A stretch of DNA of 46,110 nt, from the IMG/VR virus record IMGVR_UViG_3300031885_000033, positions 1-46,110 of that record. One strand, written 5' to 3'. The notes beneath the pieces were generated by a model. It was given only the letters and a program-made list of their open reading frames with translations, did not search any database and was not told the origin of the DNA. This document shows positions 25,959-38,416 of this stretch, one piece after another (position 1 is the stretch's first letter; each line of letters starts with the position of its first letter). Position numbers and translations under genes: made by a program. This stretch comes from a virus.

Positions 25959-26984
25959 ATGGCCGCCGCAGCTCCGATGCCTCCAGGTCGAGCCCGCGCG
26001 GCTGGAGCGTCGGTGGGCTACGGTCAGTTTCCAAATTCGTACTTCAGCCACCTGTTTTATCGCGTGCCGCTTTTCTCTTGGGCGATCGTGGGCCAGATCC
26101 TCTACCGGACCCGCTGGGGCGAGGGTGTTGTAAGCCTACAACAACAGGCTGAATGGTTTCGCCCCGATCAGAAAAAATGGGCGGAGCAACTCGGCATCAC
26201 TGATCGGGGACTCCGCAACGCCGTCCGGGAGGCGGGCGCGTGCATCGAGGAGCGGCAGGTGGGCCGCTATGTCGAGTATCGGTGCGTCGTTGAACAGTTC
26301 ATACGCATGCCGGTTCGCGAATCGAGCCGCTCGGGAAATCCCGCGCCGGAGAGGAAAACACCGGGGCAAGGCGCGTCAGTTCCCTGCTCCGCTGATCTGC
26401 TCGCCATCTGCCCACTACCAGAATTAGCCCACCTCGAAGCATCGGAGTTGAAAACAAAAGGGAAAACCCCACAACAGCGGAACAGCCGTTCCGCTGTCGA
26501 GAGTGCCCGAGGGAAAGCACACCGGAACAGCCGTTCCGCTGTCGAGAGTGCCCGAGGGAAAGCACACCGGAACAGCCGTTCCGCTGTTCGCCCCGGAATC
26601 CGCGGCATCGTCGAGCAGTTTACGGCCCGGTTTGGGGTCGGCCCAGGTGACGATGTCCTGATCGAGATCCAGCGCGCCTTGGGTGACGCTTCCGAGGAGC
26701 AGTTCGCGGCGGCGGTCGCGGCCAAGGCAGTTAAGGTTCGTTCATATAAATTTCTGGCGCTGATCGCGCATGAGTGTGCCCAGACCGCCGGGGCTTGGCA
26801 GCGGCAGCACGGGCCGGTGGAGCCTCGATTGGAGCGACGGGTAGATCCGGCGGTGTGCCCCGGCGTGGGCTCCCGTAGCTGCGGGAAGCCTAAGGCGGCT
26901 GACGCGACGATCTGCGATAAGTGCGTCGAGTACAACCGGCACCAGTACGCGAAAGCGGGGTTATATCAGGGGCGCGCACCATGA
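25959..26984 (+). CDS. Putative replication initiator with internal iterons
   Basis: 341 aa from ATG 25959 (GGAGG ten bases upstream); a GTG near residue 19 is an alternative. Residues about 25-110 form a winged-helix-like domain ('NSYFSHLFYRVPLFSWAIVG', 'WAEQLGITDRGLRNAV'), as in phage replisome-organiser or lambda O-type proteins. Residues 165-210 are encoded by tandem DNA repeats (26478-26588). The C-terminal half is helical, ending with four Cys ('VCPGVGSRSCG', 'ICDKC') that may bind zinc. Origin repeats inside the initiator gene recall lambda O. No helicase or polymerase gene is near, so it probably recruits host proteins. Confidence 0.6.
   Translation: MAAAAPMPPGRARAAGASVGYGQFPNSYFSHLFYRVPLFSWAIVGQILYRTRWGEGVVSLQQQAEWFRPDQKKWAEQLGITDRGLRNAVREAGACIEERQVGRYVEYRCVVEQFIRMPVRESSRSGNPAPERKTPGQGASVPCSADLLAICPLPELAHLEASELKTKGKTPQQRNSRSAVESARGKAHRNSRSAVESARGKAHRNSRSAVRPGIRGIVEQFTARFGVGPGDDVLIEIQRALGDASEEQFAAAVAAKAVKVRSYKFLALIAHECAQTAGAWQRQHGPVEPRLERRVDPAVCPGVGSRSCGKPKAADATICDKCVEYNRHQYAKAGLYQGRAP
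26478..26588 (+). repeat. 45-bp tandem iterons inside the initiator gene (2.5 copies)
   Basis: Units start at 26478, 26523 and 26568. The first two are identical over 45 bp and the third covers about 20 bp. Each starts with the inverted repeat CGGAAC-AGCC-GTTCCG. In the first copy the arms extend to ten bases (ACAGCGGAAC/GTTCCGCTGT). The 45-bp period keeps the reading frame and is about four helical turns plus. It is the best candidate for a replication origin in the window. Confidence 0.75.
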
Positions 26985-28751: not shown

Positions 28752-28825
28752 AAAACCCAGTCCCCAAACGTGTAGCGAGGATCGAGATTAAAGGAGGATT
28801 TGATGGACCTTACCCGAGCAACTGA
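28748..28825 (+). CDS. Possible 25-aa ORF bridging to the Acb2-like gene
   Basis: ATG 28748 overlaps the preceding stop as ATGA. The frame runs 25 codons through the SD of the next gene and stops at 28825 inside it. It could couple translation of the sponge gene to its upstream neighbour. Codon bias is not decisive. Confidence 0.25.
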   Translation: MKNPVPKRVARIEIKGGFDGPYPSN

Positions 28826-29051
28826 ATTGACGCCGGAAGTCGAGGCCGCGATCAAAGAGGCCTTCGAGTACCAGAGGTGGAACAACGATCAGCAGATACG
28901 GGGGACATTGATCCGAAAAACGCTGGGCGATGCCGTGAAAGTCATCGTCCAGAATGTTCCCCCCGGCCCGGACCGCACGGTCGGCATCCGCAAGATCCTC
29001 GAGGCGCGCATGGACTGCAACTCCGCCATCACGCACGGGGGCAAGTATTGA
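28803..29051 (+). CDS. Acb2/Tad1-like cyclic-nucleotide sponge (anti-CBASS/anti-Thoeris candidate)
   Basis: 82 aa from ATG 28803 after a perfect AAAGGAGG. The order is short N-terminal helix, 'FEYQRWNNDQQIRGTLIRKT', a long helix, 'VPPGPDRTVGIRKILEARMD' and 'NSAITHGGKY'. This is the layout I know for Acb2/Tad1-hairpin-domain proteins: two antiparallel helices with a conserved Pro-Pro turn, Arg-x-(V/L) and Asn-x-Ala-Ile. Known members bind and hide signalling molecules made by CBASS or Thoeris. Which ligand this one binds cannot be told. It has unusually strong translation signals for this operon. Confidence 0.7.
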   Translation: MDLTRATELTPEVEAAIKEAFEYQRWNNDQQIRGTLIRKTLGDAVKVIVQNVPPGPDRTVGIRKILEARMDCNSAITHGGKY

Positions 29052-29726: not shown

Positions 29727-29883
29727 ATAAGAACGTGAATGAGGCGAGGGCGATGGGCGGCGACCACGACAACCCCTTCGCCGCGCCTGCCACCGTGGGC
29801 TGGCGGCGATGCGGAGCAACCGCTATCTGCTGCACGAATTCGCCATGGCCACCAACGGTCGCGCGAGGGGGGCGGGGGCGTGA
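29723..29883 (+). pseudogene. Small gene apparently broken by a -1 frameshift near 29806
   Basis: GTG 29723 overlaps the previous stop as GTGA, and TGA 29881-29883 overlaps the next start (GTG 29880) in the same way, but these two lie in different frames. Third-position GC bias follows the first frame up to about 29806 and the second from ATG 29809 on. Joined, the product would be 53 aa ('MNKNVNEARAMGGDHDNPFA' ... 'RYLLHEFAMATNGRARGAGA'). Either an indel (real or assembly) or a frameshift site explains this. Without the shift the first frame reads on to 29902. Confidence 0.45.
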
Positions 29884-30803
29884 GTATACCTCTCTGCATT
29901 GATCTGTACTGCGGCCTCGGAGGCTGGGCTCATGGGTTTCTCGCGGAGGGCTACTGGGTTGTGGGCTTCGACATTGAGCGGCGTCCCTATCCCGGTTTGC
30001 TCGTGCTTCAGGACGTACTCACGCTGCACGGGTCGCAGTTCCGGGACGCTGCGGTGATCGTGGCCAGCCCGCCATGCCAGAACTACTCCTACATGGCGAT
30101 GCCGTGGCAGCGGGCAAAAGCGATAGCGGCGGAGATCCGGGTCGACGGCACGGGCGCGAAACTGCGCAACCTGAACGCCCTCTTCGACGCCTGCTTCCGC
30201 ATCCAACGGGAAGCCAGTGCAGCGGCGGGACATCACATCCCGATGGTGGTCGAGAACGTCAAAGGGGCACAGCCGTGGGTCGGGCGGGCCGCTTGGCATT
30301 ATGGCAGCTACTACCTGTGGGGCGATGTGCCGGCGTTGATGCCGGTTGTCATGCGGGCTCAGAAATTCAACCCAGACGGGACAGGCCACCCGCAGGGGTC
30401 GTGGTTTAAGGTGGCTGATTCCGTCAACCGCAGATCTGGGCGGAAAGTGCCCATGAACGTTCACGAGCACGAGAAGACCGGCAAGCCGGGGAGGTCGTTC
30501 CAATCGGTTGCTGTCGATCACACGAAAAACAACGGTGGCTCGTGGTTCGCCGTCGGCTCGCCGGGACAGAAGGAACTGGGGCACAACCCAGTGCATGACG
30601 GCCTGAAGAACGGCAACGACTGGTTCGGCTCAGGCGAGAACTGCTCTCTTCAGCACTCCCGCAAGGCCGCCTCCGCGCTCATCGCCAAGATACCGTTCCC
30701 GCTGGCGCAGCATATTGCCAGAATCTGTCACCCGGGCCAAAAGGAAAAAAGGGCCGGTCGGGAAGAAACCGTTGGTTTTGTCCCCGCCAGTTGCAGCCGC
30801 TAA
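29880..30803 (+). CDS. C5-cytosine DNA methyltransferase
   Basis: 307 aa from GTG 29880. Motif I is 'IDLYCGLGGWAHGF' (7-20). Motif IV is 'ASPPCQNYS' with catalytic Cys 66. Motif VI is 'VVENV' with Glu 125. The C-terminal part carries the target-recognition region and 'FPLAQHIARIC', a motif X-like helix. It transfers a methyl group from SAM to C5 of cytosine. No restriction partner is adjacent, so protection of phage DNA or host regulation is likely. The C-terminal 30 residues are basic and poorly conserved in style. Confidence 0.85.
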   Translation: MSIPLCIDLYCGLGGWAHGFLAEGYWVVGFDIERRPYPGLLVLQDVLTLHGSQFRDAAVIVASPPCQNYSYMAMPWQRAKAIAAEIRVDGTGAKLRNLNALFDACFRIQREASAAAGHHIPMVVENVKGAQPWVGRAAWHYGSYYLWGDVPALMPVVMRAQKFNPDGTGHPQGSWFKVADSVNRRSGRKVPMNVHEHEKTGKPGRSFQSVAVDHTKNNGGSWFAVGSPGQKELGHNPVHDGLKNGNDWFGSGENCSLQHSRKAASALIAKIPFPLAQHIARICHPGQKEKRAGREETVGFVPASCSR

Positions 30804-32336: not shown

Positions 32337-32975
32337 CTGGCCGGACGATCGCCAGCCGGGAAGAAGGCGCGCGGAAAGGGCCGTAGGCTTGCACCTCCGA
32401 CCTTAGCGCCCCGCCGCCGTCCTCCCGTCAAGCCGGCCAGAAAACCCCCTTCGCGCCGGATCAACACCGGCGCGTCCCGGCGTCCCGCGCCTCCAAGCCC
32501 GCCCAAAACGGGCGCCTCCCTCCGCCGCGAGGCGCGCCGCCAGCGCGCCGCAGGAGGGATACTGTCGGGAACGACAGTATCCAGCCTGGCCCGCCAGGAA
32601 GGCCTGAGCCGCTCCCACCTCAGCCGTGAAATCAACTCGCCCGAGACGCGCCTGCTTATGGCCGACCTGCTGGCCAGGCATCGTGAGCGGATCGAAAAGC
32701 TCGTTGGTAAGGGTCTAACCCGTATCGGACAAGCCCTCGATGCCCATGCCGCCGAGATCGTAGTAGCGTCCCAAGAACAAACCAAAACCAAGAGCGGCAC
32801 CAAACAGACGCGCGAATACAAATCCGTGCGCGCCGGCGTGGACCACTACGCTCGCATGACAGGTGTGAAGCGGCTGCTGGAAACCATCGAGGCCGCCCGC
32901 TCCCAGGATGATCGGCCGCAGGGCCAGACCATCACCTTCGAGATGTTTCTGACGCTACTCAAGCAGGCGTCCTGA
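32337..32975 (+). CDS. terS: Small terminase subunit, apparently with a CTG start
   Basis: The only canonical start in frame is ATG 32658, but the frame upstream clearly codes: 'TVSSLARQEGLSRSHLSREI' then 'NSPETRLLMADLLARHRERI' is the winged/HTH DNA-binding part typical of small terminases. Going back to the first stop (32318) there is no ATG, GTG or TTG. CTG 32337 follows AGGGGGAA at a good distance and gives a natural basic N-terminus ('MAGRSPAGKKARGKGRR'), total 212 aa. The protein recognises phage DNA and feeds the motor at 33499. The C-terminal half is helical and oligomerising. The function call is firm; the start is an inference. Confidence 0.65.
   Translation: MAGRSPAGKKARGKGRRLAPPTLAPRRRPPVKPARKPPSRRINTGASRRPAPPSPPKTGASLRREARRQRAAGGILSGTTVSSLARQEGLSRSHLSREINSPETRLLMADLLARHRERIEKLVGKGLTRIGQALDAHAAEIVVASQEQTKTKSGTKQTREYKSVRAGVDHYARMTGVKRLLETIEAARSQDDRPQGQTITFEMFLTLLKQAS
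32557..32582. repeat. Perfect 11-bp inverted repeat inside terS
   Basis: GGATACTGTCG (32557-32567) and CGACAGTATCC (32572-32582) with a GGAA loop, just upstream of the HTH codons. Headful phages often carry pac inside terS, so it is a pac candidate. As RNA it would be a stable hairpin right after GCAGGAGGG. Confidence 0.6.
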
Positions 32976-33502
32976 TGGACATCGTCGCGCGCAACCGGCT
33001 GATCGAAGAGAATATCGAGGGCGTGCGCGCCATCGCTGCGCGTTTGGCGCGCCGCCTGCCCCCATCGTTCGACCGCGAGGACCTAGTGCAGCAGGGTTGC
33101 CTCGGGCTCATCGACGCCGCCAACTGCTACGACGGCAGGCCCGGCGTGACGTTCTTCGCGTTCGCCCGCCGGCGCGCGAAGGGCTCCATGCTCGATTACA
33201 TCCGCCGCCGGCACTGGAAGAATGCGACCCTCGGAGGCCTTGAATTGCTGCAACACGAAGCCGCGCCAGATCATACTGAGGACCGCGTCCAGCGGGTCCA
33301 GGAGGCTGCCGAGGTCAACCGCGCGCTGCGCCGACTGCCCGACCGGGAACTGGTGATCATCCAGGGCTTCTATGGCCACGGGCAGACCAACCAGGACATC
33401 GGCCCGGGGCTGAGCATCAAAGGGAGCCGGGTGGGCCAGATCCATCGCCAGGCGCTCGAGCGTCTGCGTCGGAATCTCGGCGGCCTACGCAGAGTGGCAT
33501 GA
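32975..33502 (+). CDS. Sigma-70 family RNA polymerase sigma factor
   Basis: 175 aa, ATG 32975 (TGATG overlap with terS). Region 2 is clear: 'REDLVQQGCLGLIDAANCYD' then 'FFAFARRRAKGSMLDYIRRR' (about 30-85). Region 4 is 'LPDRELVIIQGFYGHGQTNQ' with a recognition helix 'KGSRVGQIHRQALERLRR' (about 115-165). Region 1.1 and much of region 3 are missing, as in FliA/SigB-type or phage sigma factors. It should direct host polymerase to phage promoters, most simply late ones. Lying between terS and terL is unusual. Confidence 0.8.
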   Translation: MDIVARNRLIEENIEGVRAIAARLARRLPPSFDREDLVQQGCLGLIDAANCYDGRPGVTFFAFARRRAKGSMLDYIRRRHWKNATLGGLELLQHEAAPDHTEDRVQRVQEAAEVNRALRRLPDRELVIIQGFYGHGQTNQDIGPGLSIKGSRVGQIHRQALERLRRNLGGLRRVA

Positions 33503-35253
33503 GGAACGCCGACAGGCTGCGCCTGCACGAGTTACACCAGGGCTGGCAGGATCACGCCGCCTGGTGCGCGCAGTGCCTCACGATTCCGGAACGCAGTGGG
33601 CGCGTGGTGCAGTTGGAGCCTTGGCCGGCGCACCGGCGCCTGGCCCACGCCATCAAGAAGCAGCGCGCGCGCGGGCGGCCTGCGCGGATCGTGTATCTGA
33701 AACCCCGCCGGGTTAGCGTGAGTGTGGGCTGCTGCGCCGAGCTTTTTCAATCGGTGCCGTTCCTGACCGGCCAGCACGGCTTCATTGTCAGTTACCAGAA
33801 GGATTCGGCCGAGGAGATTTTCAGCTACATCACCCACTTTCAGAACTCGTACCAGCCATATAGGGGACTGATCGGCCTTCCGCGGCTCAAGCGCAAGCCT
33901 AAGGACGCCGACCAGACCTCGGAAAACCGCCGGCGGATCGACTGGGACAATGGCTCCTACATCCGCGTCGCCACCGCCAAGAACGTCAAGACCGGCCGGT
34001 CGTTCGACGTTCGGCACGTCTTGCTCGACGAGTTCGCGTTCTACGACAACGCCGCCAAGCTCATGACCTCGATTCTCCCGTCCGTTCCGGACGACGCGGG
34101 GACTACCGTCATTGTCGCCTCGACCGCCAACGGAGTCGGCGGCCCGTTCTGGGACCTGTGCCAGAAGGCGCAGGACGCCGCCCAGCCGAGCGACTGGGTC
34201 TTTCTGTTCTTTGGATGGTGGGAGCACCCGGGGTATTCCAGAGTGTTGGATGTGCCGGCCGCGGAGTTCCAAGGCACACTCAGTCGCAATCATCCCCTCT
34301 ATGGCGACGAGTTCGCCGAGCGGCAGAACTACAATCTCACTCTCGAGCAACTTAATTGGCGGCGCTGGACCATCGCCGATACCTGCGAGTGGTCGCTCGA
34401 CCGCTTCCGGCAGGAGTATCCCGGCAACGCCGAGGAAGCCTTCCAGGCCAGCGGCCGGCCGCGCTTCAGCCACCGCTTGCTAAACCGTATGCCGGTGATC
34501 CGCGAGGCCGTGACCGGCGAACTCGAGATCGAACACGTCGGGGTACGGCGGCGCGTGGTATTCCGCGCGGGCGAGGAGGGCTGCGGCAGTATGGTGATGT
34601 ACCGGCGACCGGATCCCGAGGGCGAGTACGTGATCGGAGCCGACCCCTCCGAGGGCAAGGATGTGAAATCCGGCGAGCCTGGCAACCAGGACCCGGACTA
34701 CTCCGTCGCCGCGGTGTTCGACGCGCGCACCGGCGAGCAGGTCGCCAAGATTCGCGCCAGGATACAACCCGCCGTGTTTGGCGAGACCCTGTACGCCCTC
34801 GGCTGGTTCTACAACTGGGCCTACGTCGTGCCGGAAGCCAAGGGCGCGGGTCTCGGCACCATCGAGAAGCTCCTGGAAATGCAATACCCGCTCGACAGAC
34901 TCTACAAACGCCAGCCGGAGGCGGATGTGGCGGGTTCAACGCAGTTGCAGTTCTATGGGTACGAGACCACCAACGTCAACCGGCCGCAACTGGTGAGCGC
35001 GCTGGACAACGCGCTGACCGACGGCTCGATCATCCTGCGCGGTCCGAACACAGTCCAGGAGTGCCGGACTTTCGTGATCAAGTCGAGCGGCAAGGCCGAA
35101 CATGCCGAGGGGTGCCACGACGATGAGGTTATCGCCGTCGCCCTCGCGGTAATCGGCCTCCGGAGCATGCCGCGGCGCAAGCCGAAATTGCCTGCCGAAG
35201 CCCGTGGTGGTGTAACGAAGTGGGGCCGGCGGCGATTGGTGGATGAGGATTGA
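33499..35253 (+). CDS. terL: Large terminase subunit (packaging ATPase/nuclease)
   Basis: 584 aa, ATG 33499 (ATGA overlap). Deviant Walker A 'LKPRRVSVSVG' (67-77), lacking the usual Gly before the Ser. Walker B is 'HVLLDEFAF' with Asp 177 and Glu 178. The coupling motif is 'STANG' (208-212). The nuclease residues are Asp 382 ('GADPSEG'), Glu 446 ('VPEAKGAG') and Asp 541/542 ('HDDEVIA'). The protein pumps DNA into the prohead and cuts it. Length is normal for the family. Confidence 0.9.
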   Translation: MRNADRLRLHELHQGWQDHAAWCAQCLTIPERSGRVVQLEPWPAHRRLAHAIKKQRARGRPARIVYLKPRRVSVSVGCCAELFQSVPFLTGQHGFIVSYQKDSAEEIFSYITHFQNSYQPYRGLIGLPRLKRKPKDADQTSENRRRIDWDNGSYIRVATAKNVKTGRSFDVRHVLLDEFAFYDNAAKLMTSILPSVPDDAGTTVIVASTANGVGGPFWDLCQKAQDAAQPSDWVFLFFGWWEHPGYSRVLDVPAAEFQGTLSRNHPLYGDEFAERQNYNLTLEQLNWRRWTIADTCEWSLDRFRQEYPGNAEEAFQASGRPRFSHRLLNRMPVIREAVTGELEIEHVGVRRRVVFRAGEEGCGSMVMYRRPDPEGEYVIGADPSEGKDVKSGEPGNQDPDYSVAAVFDARTGEQVAKIRARIQPAVFGETLYALGWFYNWAYVVPEAKGAGLGTIEKLLEMQYPLDRLYKRQPEADVAGSTQLQFYGYETTNVNRPQLVSALDNALTDGSIILRGPNTVQECRTFVIKSSGKAEHAEGCHDDEVIAVALAVIGLRSMPRRKPKLPAEARGGVTKWGRRRLVDED

Positions 35254-35805
35254 GTGGGCACATCCGTCAACCGTGGCGTCGCCGTCGCCAACGCCTCACC
35301 CAGTTGCGTGTACTGCCACGGGGAGGGCGCGCGGCGCCGCCTCGGGACCTGCCGGTGTGTGTTGCGGGAGGTCTTCCGGATATGTTTGGAGCAGTACCGC
35401 TACTCGGTGGAAAATGGCCTCGCGCTGAACCGCTGCTGTGTCACTGAGATCAGCCGCGGTGGCAAGATTCTGACCGGTTTGCCGCACGCCGAATACGTGG
35501 CGGACTTCGAGCTGGCGGTCTATCGGGCCCTGAGTCCGGCGAGGCGGAAGTTGTTCGATCTGCGTTTCGCCCAAGGCCGGACTTACAGGGATTGTCTGGG
35601 GGATCTGGGCCTGAGGAGAGGCGAGTTCTTCCACCAGACCTACACGGTGATGGAGTTGGTCGGCACCGAATGCCTGAAGGGCCTGTATCCTCTCGACGAG
35701 TATTTCGGCGCGCGCCGGGTGGTGATGGGGCAACTCAATGATTCGGCTCCTTCAACTCTTCAGAGCCACAGATGCCACCGGCCAGCCTTCATGCCGGCAG
35801 CCTGA
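35254..35805 (+). CDS. Cys-rich protein with sigma-region-4-like helices, possible late regulator
   Basis: 183 aa from GTG 35254, directly after the terL stop. N-terminal 'CVYCHGEGARRRLGTCRC' can bind zinc. Residues about 90-140 ('LSPARRKLFDLRFAQGRTYR') read like sigma region 4 or ArpU/RinA-type late regulators. The C-terminal 20 residues look like read-through and may be dispensable. A transcription role together with the sigma factor at 32975 is possible, but this is inference. Confidence 0.5.
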   Translation: MGTSVNRGVAVANASPSCVYCHGEGARRRLGTCRCVLREVFRICLEQYRYSVENGLALNRCCVTEISRGGKILTGLPHAEYVADFELAVYRALSPARRKLFDLRFAQGRTYRDCLGDLGLRRGEFFHQTYTVMELVGTECLKGLYPLDEYFGARRVVMGQLNDSAPSTLQSHRCHRPAFMPAA

Positions 35806-35806
35806 T

Positions 35807-36226
35807 ATGAAACTGAAACTCCCCAGAAATTACCGCGACGTCGTCGACGAATTGGGCGCCGTGCAGGATAAGTTGGGCGACCTCGCTCTCATGGTTAAAG
35901 CCCTGGTCGAACGCGAGAAGGAACTTCGCAGCCAGGTGCTGAGCTGGTGCGAGAAACTCCCCGCCGACGAAGACACGGGCCTGGAAGGATCGCGGTATGC
36001 GCTGGCGATCAGCCCGCGGCGAACCGAGCGCACAATTACCTCGATGGCTAGGCTCCTGAAGCGACTGGGGCTGCGCCTCTTTCTGAAGGGTTGCAGCATC
36101 CCGCTCAAGTACATCGACGAGCACCTCGCGGCGCTCGATCAGAAGGGCCTCATCAGCGAGGCCCGGACCGGAGCCCGCGTCATCACCACGTTGCCGAGAA
36201 TGGCGGCAGCGAAAAGGGCCGCGTAG
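35807..36226 (+). CDS. Coiled-coil protein upstream of portal, unknown function
   Basis: 139 aa from ATG 35807, one base after the previous stop; an in-frame ATG at 35738 overlaps the previous gene. A coiled coil ('LGAVQDKLGDLALMVKALVE') is followed by 'RYALAISPRRTERTITSMAR' and a C-terminal 'LKYIDEHLAALDQKGL'. The layout recalls small phage Gam- or Gp157-like proteins, but the match is too weak to name. Its stop abuts the portal ATG. Confidence 0.55.
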   Translation: MKLKLPRNYRDVVDELGAVQDKLGDLALMVKALVEREKELRSQVLSWCEKLPADEDTGLEGSRYALAISPRRTERTITSMARLLKRLGLRLFLKGCSIPLKYIDEHLAALDQKGLISEARTGARVITTLPRMAAAKRAA

Positions 36227-38416
36227 ATGCAACTCGCCCTCCCAGCCAACGAACTGAAGCGGCTCAGCGGCCGCATCGAAGAGGACTACAACCTCGCCCT
36301 AATCGACCACCAGACCCGCGTCGAGCGCTTTCGCGGCTATTACCAGCGCTGGCGCAACCGCGTGAATCCACCGCCCGCCGGCGAAGAGGACAAGCCCAAT
36401 TTCTCGGTTCCGTTGATTCAGTGGAACGTGGCAAGTAAGTGGGCCGACGACTTAGGTAAACTGCTCGGGCCAGACGCCGAGATCGCCGCCAAGCCCACCG
36501 GGCCCGCGGATCAGAGACTCACGCACAAGATCGGCCGGTGGATGACCTGGCGCGTGTTCCAAGCCATGCGCCTGGTCAATCCCTTCGCCGTCTTCACCTT
36601 CCGCGAGACGCTGTTCGGCCGGGCGCACGCCTACTCTCCCTGGGTGCGCGACAGTTACCCTATCCTCGACCCGGAGACGGGCGGCGTGGTCGAGCGCATG
36701 GCCTACGAAGGGCCAGGATTTTTTCCCCAGTGGCCCGACGACATAATTGTGCCGGCCGAGGACGCGGAAACGATTCACGACTTCAGTTTCGTGATCCGGC
36801 GCTACCGGGTGCGGCCCGACGATTTGCTGCGGGGGGAGGCTCAGGGTCTCTACCAGGGGATAGAGCAGGACTTCGACAGGATCTACCACGCGGCCGAGTT
36901 GGGCCAGAAGCGCGAGGCGCGGGGCGAGGAGATCAAGGCCGAAAAGGACCTTTCGGAAGGCGTCGAGTACCAGGGCGCCCAATCCGGCCGCGGCGAACTC
37001 CAGGTCCTGGAATGGTACGGGGGCTGGCGCAGGCTGCGCCGGCCGAAGAAGGACGCCCGCGAAGACAACCTGCAGGAGCGGCAGCGCTTCGAGTCGGAGT
37101 TGGTACTGTGCGTACTCCCGGAACTCAACTACCGCGTGGTGGGGGTCCAGGACCTGCTCGATCTCTACCCGACGAAGCGCCGGCGGCGCCCCTTCGTCGA
37201 GGCCTCGCTGATGAAGGACGGTTCCTACTGGTCGCCTGGGTTCGGAGAGATCCTGGAGTCCATCGAGGACGAAACCACGGTGAATCATCGCCTGTTCACC
37301 GAGGCGGGGCAACTCGCCGTCGGACCGTTGGTCCTCTACAAACCTAGCGCCGGCTTCAACCCGGACGCTTTCACCTACGCCCCGCAGACCGCCATCGCCA
37401 CCGAAGACCCGAGCGGCGTGAATGTGGTTCGGATGCAGGCCGATCTCCAGTACCCTATCGTCAAGGAGCAGGGTCTGGTCAGTTACGCCGAGCGCGTCAC
37501 GGGCCGTACCGACTTCGCCATGGGCCGGTCGAGCGACCGCCCGAACGCGCCCAAGACGGCCAGGGCGACGCTCGCGCTGCTGGAGCAAGGCAACATTCGA
37601 GCCAATCTGGACGCTCTGGTACTGCGCGAGGACATGGCACAGATTCTCGGCCATTTCTGGGAGCTCGAGCAGCAGTTCCCCATCACCCAGCGCACTTTCT
37701 TCCGTGTCACCGAGGAGGAAGCCGGCGGACTGTTCGACATCTCCAAGGGCGGCGCCTACATGGAGCCCGACGAGATGGGCGGCCGCTACGACTTCGATCT
37801 GAAGTTTGCCAGCTCGGTGTGGGGCCGGGAGGCCGAGCGGGAGCGGAGTTTACAGCTTTATGGCCTGGACCTACAAAATCCCCTGATAGGCCAGAATCCC
37901 CGGGCGCTCTGGATGATTACCCAGCGCATCCACAAGGCCATGGGCGACGACAATTTCGCCGACCTGGTGCCGGAGCCGCCCGATCTGGGACGTCCGCGAT
38001 CGCCGCGCGAGGAGTGGACGCTGGCTCTCCAGGGCGAGGAGATCATGGTGCATCCCGACGATCACGACGAGCTCCACGTCCGCCAGCACATCGGCCAAGT
38101 CCAAGAAGAGACCGCCGCCGGCGCGCGGCCGGACGCCAGCGCGGCGCGGGCCATGCTCGAGCACATCCAGGCGCACCGGGCGCAGGAAGCCCAGAAGCGG
38201 CTGATGCAGGCCCTCGCAAATCAGCTCGTGAACACCATGGCCTCGAACGCCGCGACCGGCCAGGGGTTGCAGATCGGCGGCACGCCCATGAACCTGCAAC
38301 GTCTGCAGGGCCTGATCTCGGAGTTGACCGGACAAGGCAACGGGGGTCAGCCGGGAGCGCCGGGCGCGCCGCCCACTGGCGCCGACCAAGAGAATTTGCC
38401 GCCCGTAGCGGCCTAA
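36227..38416 (+). CDS. Portal protein
   Basis: 729 aa, ATG 36227, directly after the previous stop. The size and layout match P22-type portals: an N-terminal helical part ('LIDHQTRVERFRGYYQRW'), central 'NFSVPLIQWNVASKWADDLG', a stem region, 'ESIEDETTVNHRLFTEAGQL' and a helical C-terminal barrel-like tail (about 620-700, Gln/Ala/Arg-rich). It forms the dodecamer through which DNA enters and leaves. It follows terL in the expected order. Confidence 0.85.
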   Translation: MQLALPANELKRLSGRIEEDYNLALIDHQTRVERFRGYYQRWRNRVNPPPAGEEDKPNFSVPLIQWNVASKWADDLGKLLGPDAEIAAKPTGPADQRLTHKIGRWMTWRVFQAMRLVNPFAVFTFRETLFGRAHAYSPWVRDSYPILDPETGGVVERMAYEGPGFFPQWPDDIIVPAEDAETIHDFSFVIRRYRVRPDDLLRGEAQGLYQGIEQDFDRIYHAAELGQKREARGEEIKAEKDLSEGVEYQGAQSGRGELQVLEWYGGWRRLRRPKKDAREDNLQERQRFESELVLCVLPELNYRVVGVQDLLDLYPTKRRRRPFVEASLMKDGSYWSPGFGEILESIEDETTVNHRLFTEAGQLAVGPLVLYKPSAGFNPDAFTYAPQTAIATEDPSGVNVVRMQADLQYPIVKEQGLVSYAERVTGRTDFAMGRSSDRPNAPKTARATLALLEQGNIRANLDALVLREDMAQILGHFWELEQQFPITQRTFFRVTEEEAGGLFDISKGGAYMEPDEMGGRYDFDLKFASSVWGREAERERSLQLYGLDLQNPLIGQNPRALWMITQRIHKAMGDDNFADLVPEPPDLGRPRSPREEWTLALQGEEIMVHPDDHDELHVRQHIGQVQEETAAGARPDASAARAMLEHIQAHRAQEAQKRLMQALANQLVNTMASNAATGQGLQIGGTPMNLQRLQGLISELTGQGNGGQPGAPGAPPTGADQENLPPVAA

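Follow-up and report, generated by a model that had tools for sequence, protein, structure and literature searches.

Acb2 and Tad1, which have a helical hairpin in common, assemble as hexamers. To our knowledge, only a minority of the proteins carrying this hairpin domain (PF24729) has been assayed, and membership in the family is by itself no proof of sponging. The Acb2 protein of phage T4 (Vs.4; PDB 7uq2) contacts cGAMP through Y8, H11, K23, R79 and F82, its binding is disturbed by S74N, the single substitution F82A costs more than 25-fold in affinity, and its hexamer interface is built by L29, A66, A73 and A77 (PMC10097602). For another substitution, T68M, a reduced affinity has been described (PMC12657230). 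In Tad1, the hairpin is preceded by an N-terminal antiparallel beta-sheet that accounts for half of the protomer (PMC12043709).

In this study, we analyzed an 82-amino-acid protein encoded in 46,110 nucleotides of viral DNA (IMG/VR record IMGVR_UViG_3300031885_000033), hereafter called the window. We put a probability of about two in three on the reading that this protein is a counter-defense sponge of the Acb2/Tad1 hairpin superfamily, oligomeric and with a pocket rewired toward another nucleotide signal. The features of the gene are collected in Table 1.

Table 1. Positions of the sponge-family gene and its parts in the window.
Feature	Positions	Strand	Basis
Shine-Dalgarno AGGAGG	28792..28797	+	5 nt before ATG of the 82-aa ORF; sequence read directly
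82-aa Acb2/Tad1-hairpin sponge-family gene	28803..29051	+	ORF; family-level PF24729 matches; profile versus PDB
Clade-specific N-terminal extension, residues 1-21: D-[FLI]-[TN]-R-A motif and short helix (about 11-21)	28803..28865	+	Clade alignment; AF2 models
EYQRW loop, residues 22-26: Y23 = T4 Acb2 Y8, W26 = H11	28866..28880	+	hhalign; PF24729 alignment coordinates of relatives
Hairpin helix 1, residues 28-51; invariant R38 = T4 K23	28884..28955	+	AF2; alignments
Hairpin helix 2, residues 56-77; R63, R69, S74, T77 at T4 T68, S74, R79, F82	28968..29033	+	AF2; column contrasts
Helix 2, G61, A68, C72 at T4 hexamer-interface A66, A73, A77	28968..29033	+	AF2; column contrasts
C-terminal HGGKY tail, near-invariant in clade	29034..29048	+	Clade alignment

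The gene and its superfamily assignment

The all-helical ORF that the initial annotation had reported, with its segments FEYQRWNNDQ, VPPGPDRTVGIRK and NSAITHGG, is present as described. Comparison of the window gene with 22 related loci gives mean nucleotide identities of 0.73, 0.78 and 0.41 at first, second and third codon positions, and synonymous single changes exceed nonsynonymous ones by about 2-8 fold. Because the search of related loci found this protein encoded in 41 of them, third positions are far less conserved and synonymous changes are in excess, the ORF is more than a chance occurrence; it is a real gene under purifying selection.

AlphaFold2 (AF2) models the protein as three helices (pLDDT 91-92), with an N-terminal helix followed by an antiparallel two-helix hairpin formed by residues 28-51 and 56-77 (pLDDT above 90). 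When viral predicted structures were searched with Foldseek, 11 of the 12 best matches were named Acb2/Tad1 hairpin. Against the PDB, neither AF2 model gave anything significant; the Acb2 entry 8h2j was ranked fifth with one model (E=3.8) and was absent with the other, and for so small a helical fold this search is uninformative.

Searched alone, the window protein yields only chance matches, both against Pfam, where PF24729 is not matched, and in a single-sequence search of the PDB. A profile match had been proposed as a check on the assignment, and it is found only through the relatives of the protein. PF24729 is matched by 35 of the 36 members of the window clade, one of them (L035, 30.4 bits) above the curated gathering score of 27 bits and another (L037, 26.2 bits) narrowly below it. 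The branch lies mostly under the Pfam cut-off and escapes routine annotation. In hhalign, the clade profile aligns with five canonical PF24729 members (from phages Sitara, Anthony, Schomber, 1706 and Tunturi_1) at E=2.9e-15 over 66 gapless columns, and these five align with T4-type Acb2 at E=1.3e-5. Compared directly with T4-type Acb2, the profile of the clade alone is not significant (probability 2), whereas an enlarged profile, A5, made of the clade and its nearer relatives (60 sequences), reaches E=2.6e-5 and a probability of 75. With A5, the top eight matches among 177,635 PDB sequences are exclusively Acb2 homolog 43 (PDB 9ptq; E=2.5e-4, 56 gapless columns), T4 Vs.4 (E=0.038) and Tad1 entries (E=0.039 and 0.38-0.39). 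The clade-only profile finds Acb2 homolog 43 as its best true match in the PDB at a non-significant E=0.92; we found no paper associated with this structure.

The phrog_1454 family, of unknown function, is matched by canonical members at 1e-24 to 1e-33, whereas fixed substitutions hold the window clade at much lower scores of 27-39 bits (8.8e-6, a weak match, for the window protein). The first tblastn match, a protein of MW202795 (H1) at 44%, matches other PHROGs (1761 and 5120), does not match PF24729 and was left out. Elsewhere, PF24729-type proteins stand under the label 'putative phosphomannomutase' in a Paenibacillus phage (MG727702, 37238-37438) and a Brevibacillus phage (KT151955, 78977-79165), which is probably a misannotation.

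These comparisons place the window protein in the Acb2/Tad1 hairpin superfamily, an assignment that is secure at family level. The membership originally proposed is thus borne out by the PF24729 matches of the clade, the profile-profile alignments, the PDB profile search and the viral Foldseek search. Its naming after Acb2 or Tad1 as characterized is not supported: there is no strand in either AF2 model where Tad1 has its beta-sheet, and the chemistry differs from that of T4 Acb2 at five of the seven binding-site positions. The protein is neither Tad1 nor demonstrably Acb2.

Pocket and interface columns across the family

In a tree of 153 rows and 73 columns, in which most inner forks are open, the 36 clade members form one branch (SH-aLRT 100) that is joined with 39 Tunturi-like proteins (SH-aLRT 98) apart from the canonical set. 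This sister group comprises uncharacterized PF24729 members, namely gp101 of Tunturiibacter phage Tunturi_1 and IMG/VR relatives. The gp101 gene (L045:1489-1704) is annotated as hypothetical, yet its product scores 44.6 bits against PF24729. Because the phage is a cultured one that infects an acidobacterium, this candidate sponge would offer the easiest starting point for genetics.

Contrasts between alignment columns show a graded series from canonical to Tunturi-like to window-clade proteins. The canonical residues are P26, Y34, R56, E57, T63, E66, V69, W71, A74, A77 and R78, although the canonical set was fetched by a pattern over columns 65-74, so that conservation is partly biased there (column 71 was free in the pattern). 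Most Tunturi-like proteins have A56 and, already as in the window clade, D57, R63 and R66; they keep P26, Y34 and V69, mostly carry T71, lack the N-terminal DFTRA extension and mostly do not end in GKY. The window clade has W26, G34, P56, D57, R58, R63, R66, R69, D71, S74, T77 and H78 together with the GKY tail. Its C-terminal third is near-identical across the 36 phages, and the window copy itself departs from the other members at two conserved columns, with G61 for A and L66 for R.

Mapped by alignment, T4 Y8, H11 and K23 correspond to Y23, W26 and R38, and T68, S74, R79 and F82 to R63, R69, S74 and T77. Within the clade, conservation is 97% or more in every one of these seven ligand-related columns, a coincidence with a hypergeometric P of 4e-4 for the domain (columns 17-80), 0.005 for its N-terminal part and 0.09 for its C-terminal part. 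The chemistry of the T4 protein is nevertheless kept at only two of the seven, Y23 and R38, with W, R, R, S and T standing in place of H11, T68, S74, R79 and F82. Hence the cyclic-dinucleotide pocket of Acb2 (Y8, H11, K23, R79, F82) is not found intact, with H changed to W, R to S and F to T. At the hexamer interface (T4 L29, A66, A73, A77; here A44, G61, A68, C72), small residues occupy three of the four columns (A in 35 of 36 members at 61, A at 68, and C or A at 72), while L29 is lost.

Likeness to the Acb2 proteins T4 Vs.4 and PaP2 p26 (8h2j) lies in two antiparallel helices, the residues equivalent to Y8 and K23, and small residues at most interface positions (PMC10097602). Besides the five replaced pocket residues, the window protein differs from them in a shorter inter-helix stretch and an extra N-terminal helix. 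Acb2 homolog 43 has the loop FDTH versus FEYH, and T, E and F where the window clade has R63, R66 and D71. Tad1 (PDB 7uav, 8kbb and others) has a similar C-terminal hairpin with an R-E/D-x-x-x-A-x-x-x-L-x-E core, but the window protein is shorter (82 versus about 125 residues) and has no N-terminal sheet.

Neighborhood, likely host and its defense genes

The TGA of the sponge-family gene (29049-29051) overlaps the ATG (29051) of a 58-aa ORF. The initial annotation had suggested that these coupled genes share a task; the coupling stands, while the shared task is not supported, because no relative of the downstream ORF turned up in the fetched loci, and the ORF was dropped as a partner. Against Pfam and PHROG it likewise gave nothing noteworthy. 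Almost every relative of the sponge-family gene has its own downstream genes, and only a few share the upstream ones, which suits an exchangeable accessory gene. For an exchangeable counter-defense gene, a phage-borne location, a strong Shine-Dalgarno sequence and different neighbors in most relatives would all be expected, and they fit. A plasmid search gave no match to the sponge gene, and prophage copies are rare, with one match in 150 Bryobacterales genomes.

Several other features of these loci were noted. Directly downstream of one copy, L002:4569-5156 encodes a second, diverged sponge-domain protein without a Pfam match; its N-terminal part (CWCGRPLDENGQCFLHP) is rich in cysteine, its hairpin domain is degenerate, and its hydrophobic C-terminus may serve as a membrane anchor. 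In another phage contig (IMGVR_UViG_3300036790_000324), the gene is present twice, as similar copies near the two ends (L032 and L033). In the window, a cytosine-C5 methylase-like gene lies downstream at 29739-30803 (PF00145, E=0.001, below cut-off), with a 53% identical copy in L023, a locus that also carries the sponge gene. A sigma-70 factor with regions 2 and 4 is encoded at 32975-33502, directly before a terminase-like gene at 33499. A 45-bp tandem repeat (26474-26587; 2.5 copies, 98%) inside the ORF at 25959-26984 encodes NSRSAVESARGKAHR repeats, and its opposite strand is open too.

The host of the phage probably belongs to the soil acidobacteria of the order Bryobacterales, because relatives of the sponge gene are found in Bryobacteraceae and Solibacteraceae MAGs and because the terminase-like protein of the window shares 37-43% identity with copies from five Bryobacterales genomes. 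Among the phage records listed, its identity is at most about 30%. Across the 150 Bryobacterales genomes, long SMODS matches occur in 16 (21 over the cut-off if short ones are included), SAVED in 10, ThsB_TIR in 44 and mCpol in three. In four genomes (G033, G072, G074, G156), no more than about 2 kb separates SMODS from SAVED, both on one strand, an arrangement like that of a CBASS operon. Suitable targets for a sponge are thus present in the host order, which is no statement about their action against this phage; of the earlier suggestion that CBASS or Thoeris is active in the host, what is supported is the presence of genes (CBASS, SAVED, ThsB-type TIR and mCpol) in the likely host order.

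The mCpol genes are of the Panoptes type. Since T4 Acb2 is a liability against Panoptes (PMC12657218), the window sponge could by analogy be one in hosts of this order that carry mCpol. In one genome (G053, contig C60, about 33453-37978), SAVED and mCpol domains lie within about 4 kb, which suggests Panoptes beside CBASS in Bryobacterales.

Possible functions of the altered pocket

For pocket columns that are conserved yet chemically changed, the simplest reading would be the same site with a different ligand. We infer oligomerization, ligand binding, a counter-defense role and changed specificity for the window protein, whose hairpins would probably assemble into an oligomer with protomers head to head, by analogy with Acb2, and with one signal molecule in each pocket between two protomers. 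Such a pocket may consist of the N-terminal Y23, the basic R38, the C-terminal half of helix 2 and the protein's tail. The alarm molecule captured there would be small and derived from a nucleotide, stacked on Y23 and held by R38 plus R63 or R69, and its sequestration would keep a host effector of the CBASS or Thoeris type silent. The preferred signal of the clade is probably other than that of T4 Acb2 because the pocket is rewired at W26, R63, R69, S74, T77, G34 and D71. A further proposal, which we regard as possible and hold only tentatively, is that the clade is a separate sponge class, its pocket rebuilt (invariant W26, R63, R69, D71 and S74 plus the GKY tail) for a signal that no characterized Acb2 or Tad1 targets, with Tunturi-like proteins as intermediate steps.

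The retained Y23 and R38, the small residues at three of four interface positions and the CBASS genes of the likely host order, some of which have a SAVED effector nearby in the same orientation, would also suit a conventional Acb2 with the ligands of T4 Vs.4 (3',3'-cGAMP and cyclic trinucleotides), its substitutions being compensated within the pocket. We consider this rather unlikely, as the cGAMP contacts H11, R79 and F82 are W26, S74 and T77 here, loss of F82 alone being so costly in T4 Acb2 (PMC10097602), and as an invariant Arg stands at T68, where T68M lowers binding (PMC12657230). It is likewise unlikely that the hairpin alone sequesters gcADPR or another ADP-ribose-derived signal in the manner of Tad1. 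The absence from both AF2 models of the sheet that forms half of the Tad1 protomer (PMC12043709) argues against such a Thoeris sponge; the eight best profile matches in the PDB do include Tad1 chains, and ThsB_TIR is the commonest signal-related family in the host order, but many TIR matches need not be Thoeris.

More doubtful still is a hairpin co-opted outside immune signaling, for example to bind a host protein or a housekeeping nucleotide. The unusually fixed C-terminal segment EARMDCNSAITHGGKY would be in line with this, as would a degree of identity in the C-terminal third above what an arms race would lead one to expect, and most PF24729 proteins are without a tested function. However, conservation falls on the columns of the Acb2 ligand site, and neighbors that vary from phage to phage suit a stand-alone accessory gene. 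Finally, the lack of a Pfam match for the window protein alone and the non-significant Foldseek search of the PDB could indicate a generic small helical phage protein of coincidental similarity, an idea that is hardly credible given the profile evidence from its relatives, both to canonical PF24729 and in the PDB search, and the well-supported union of the clade with Tunturi-like members.

If the protein is indeed a re-specified sponge, sponge-type counter-defense would extend to phages of Acidobacteriota, abundant soil bacteria in which phage defense is little studied, and a protein of about 80 residues would display a three-step series of pocket changes. Because a sponge reflects the signal that it captures, re-specification of the pocket would point to a signal of acidobacterial relatives of CBASS or Thoeris, and this signal would become testable with one small protein.
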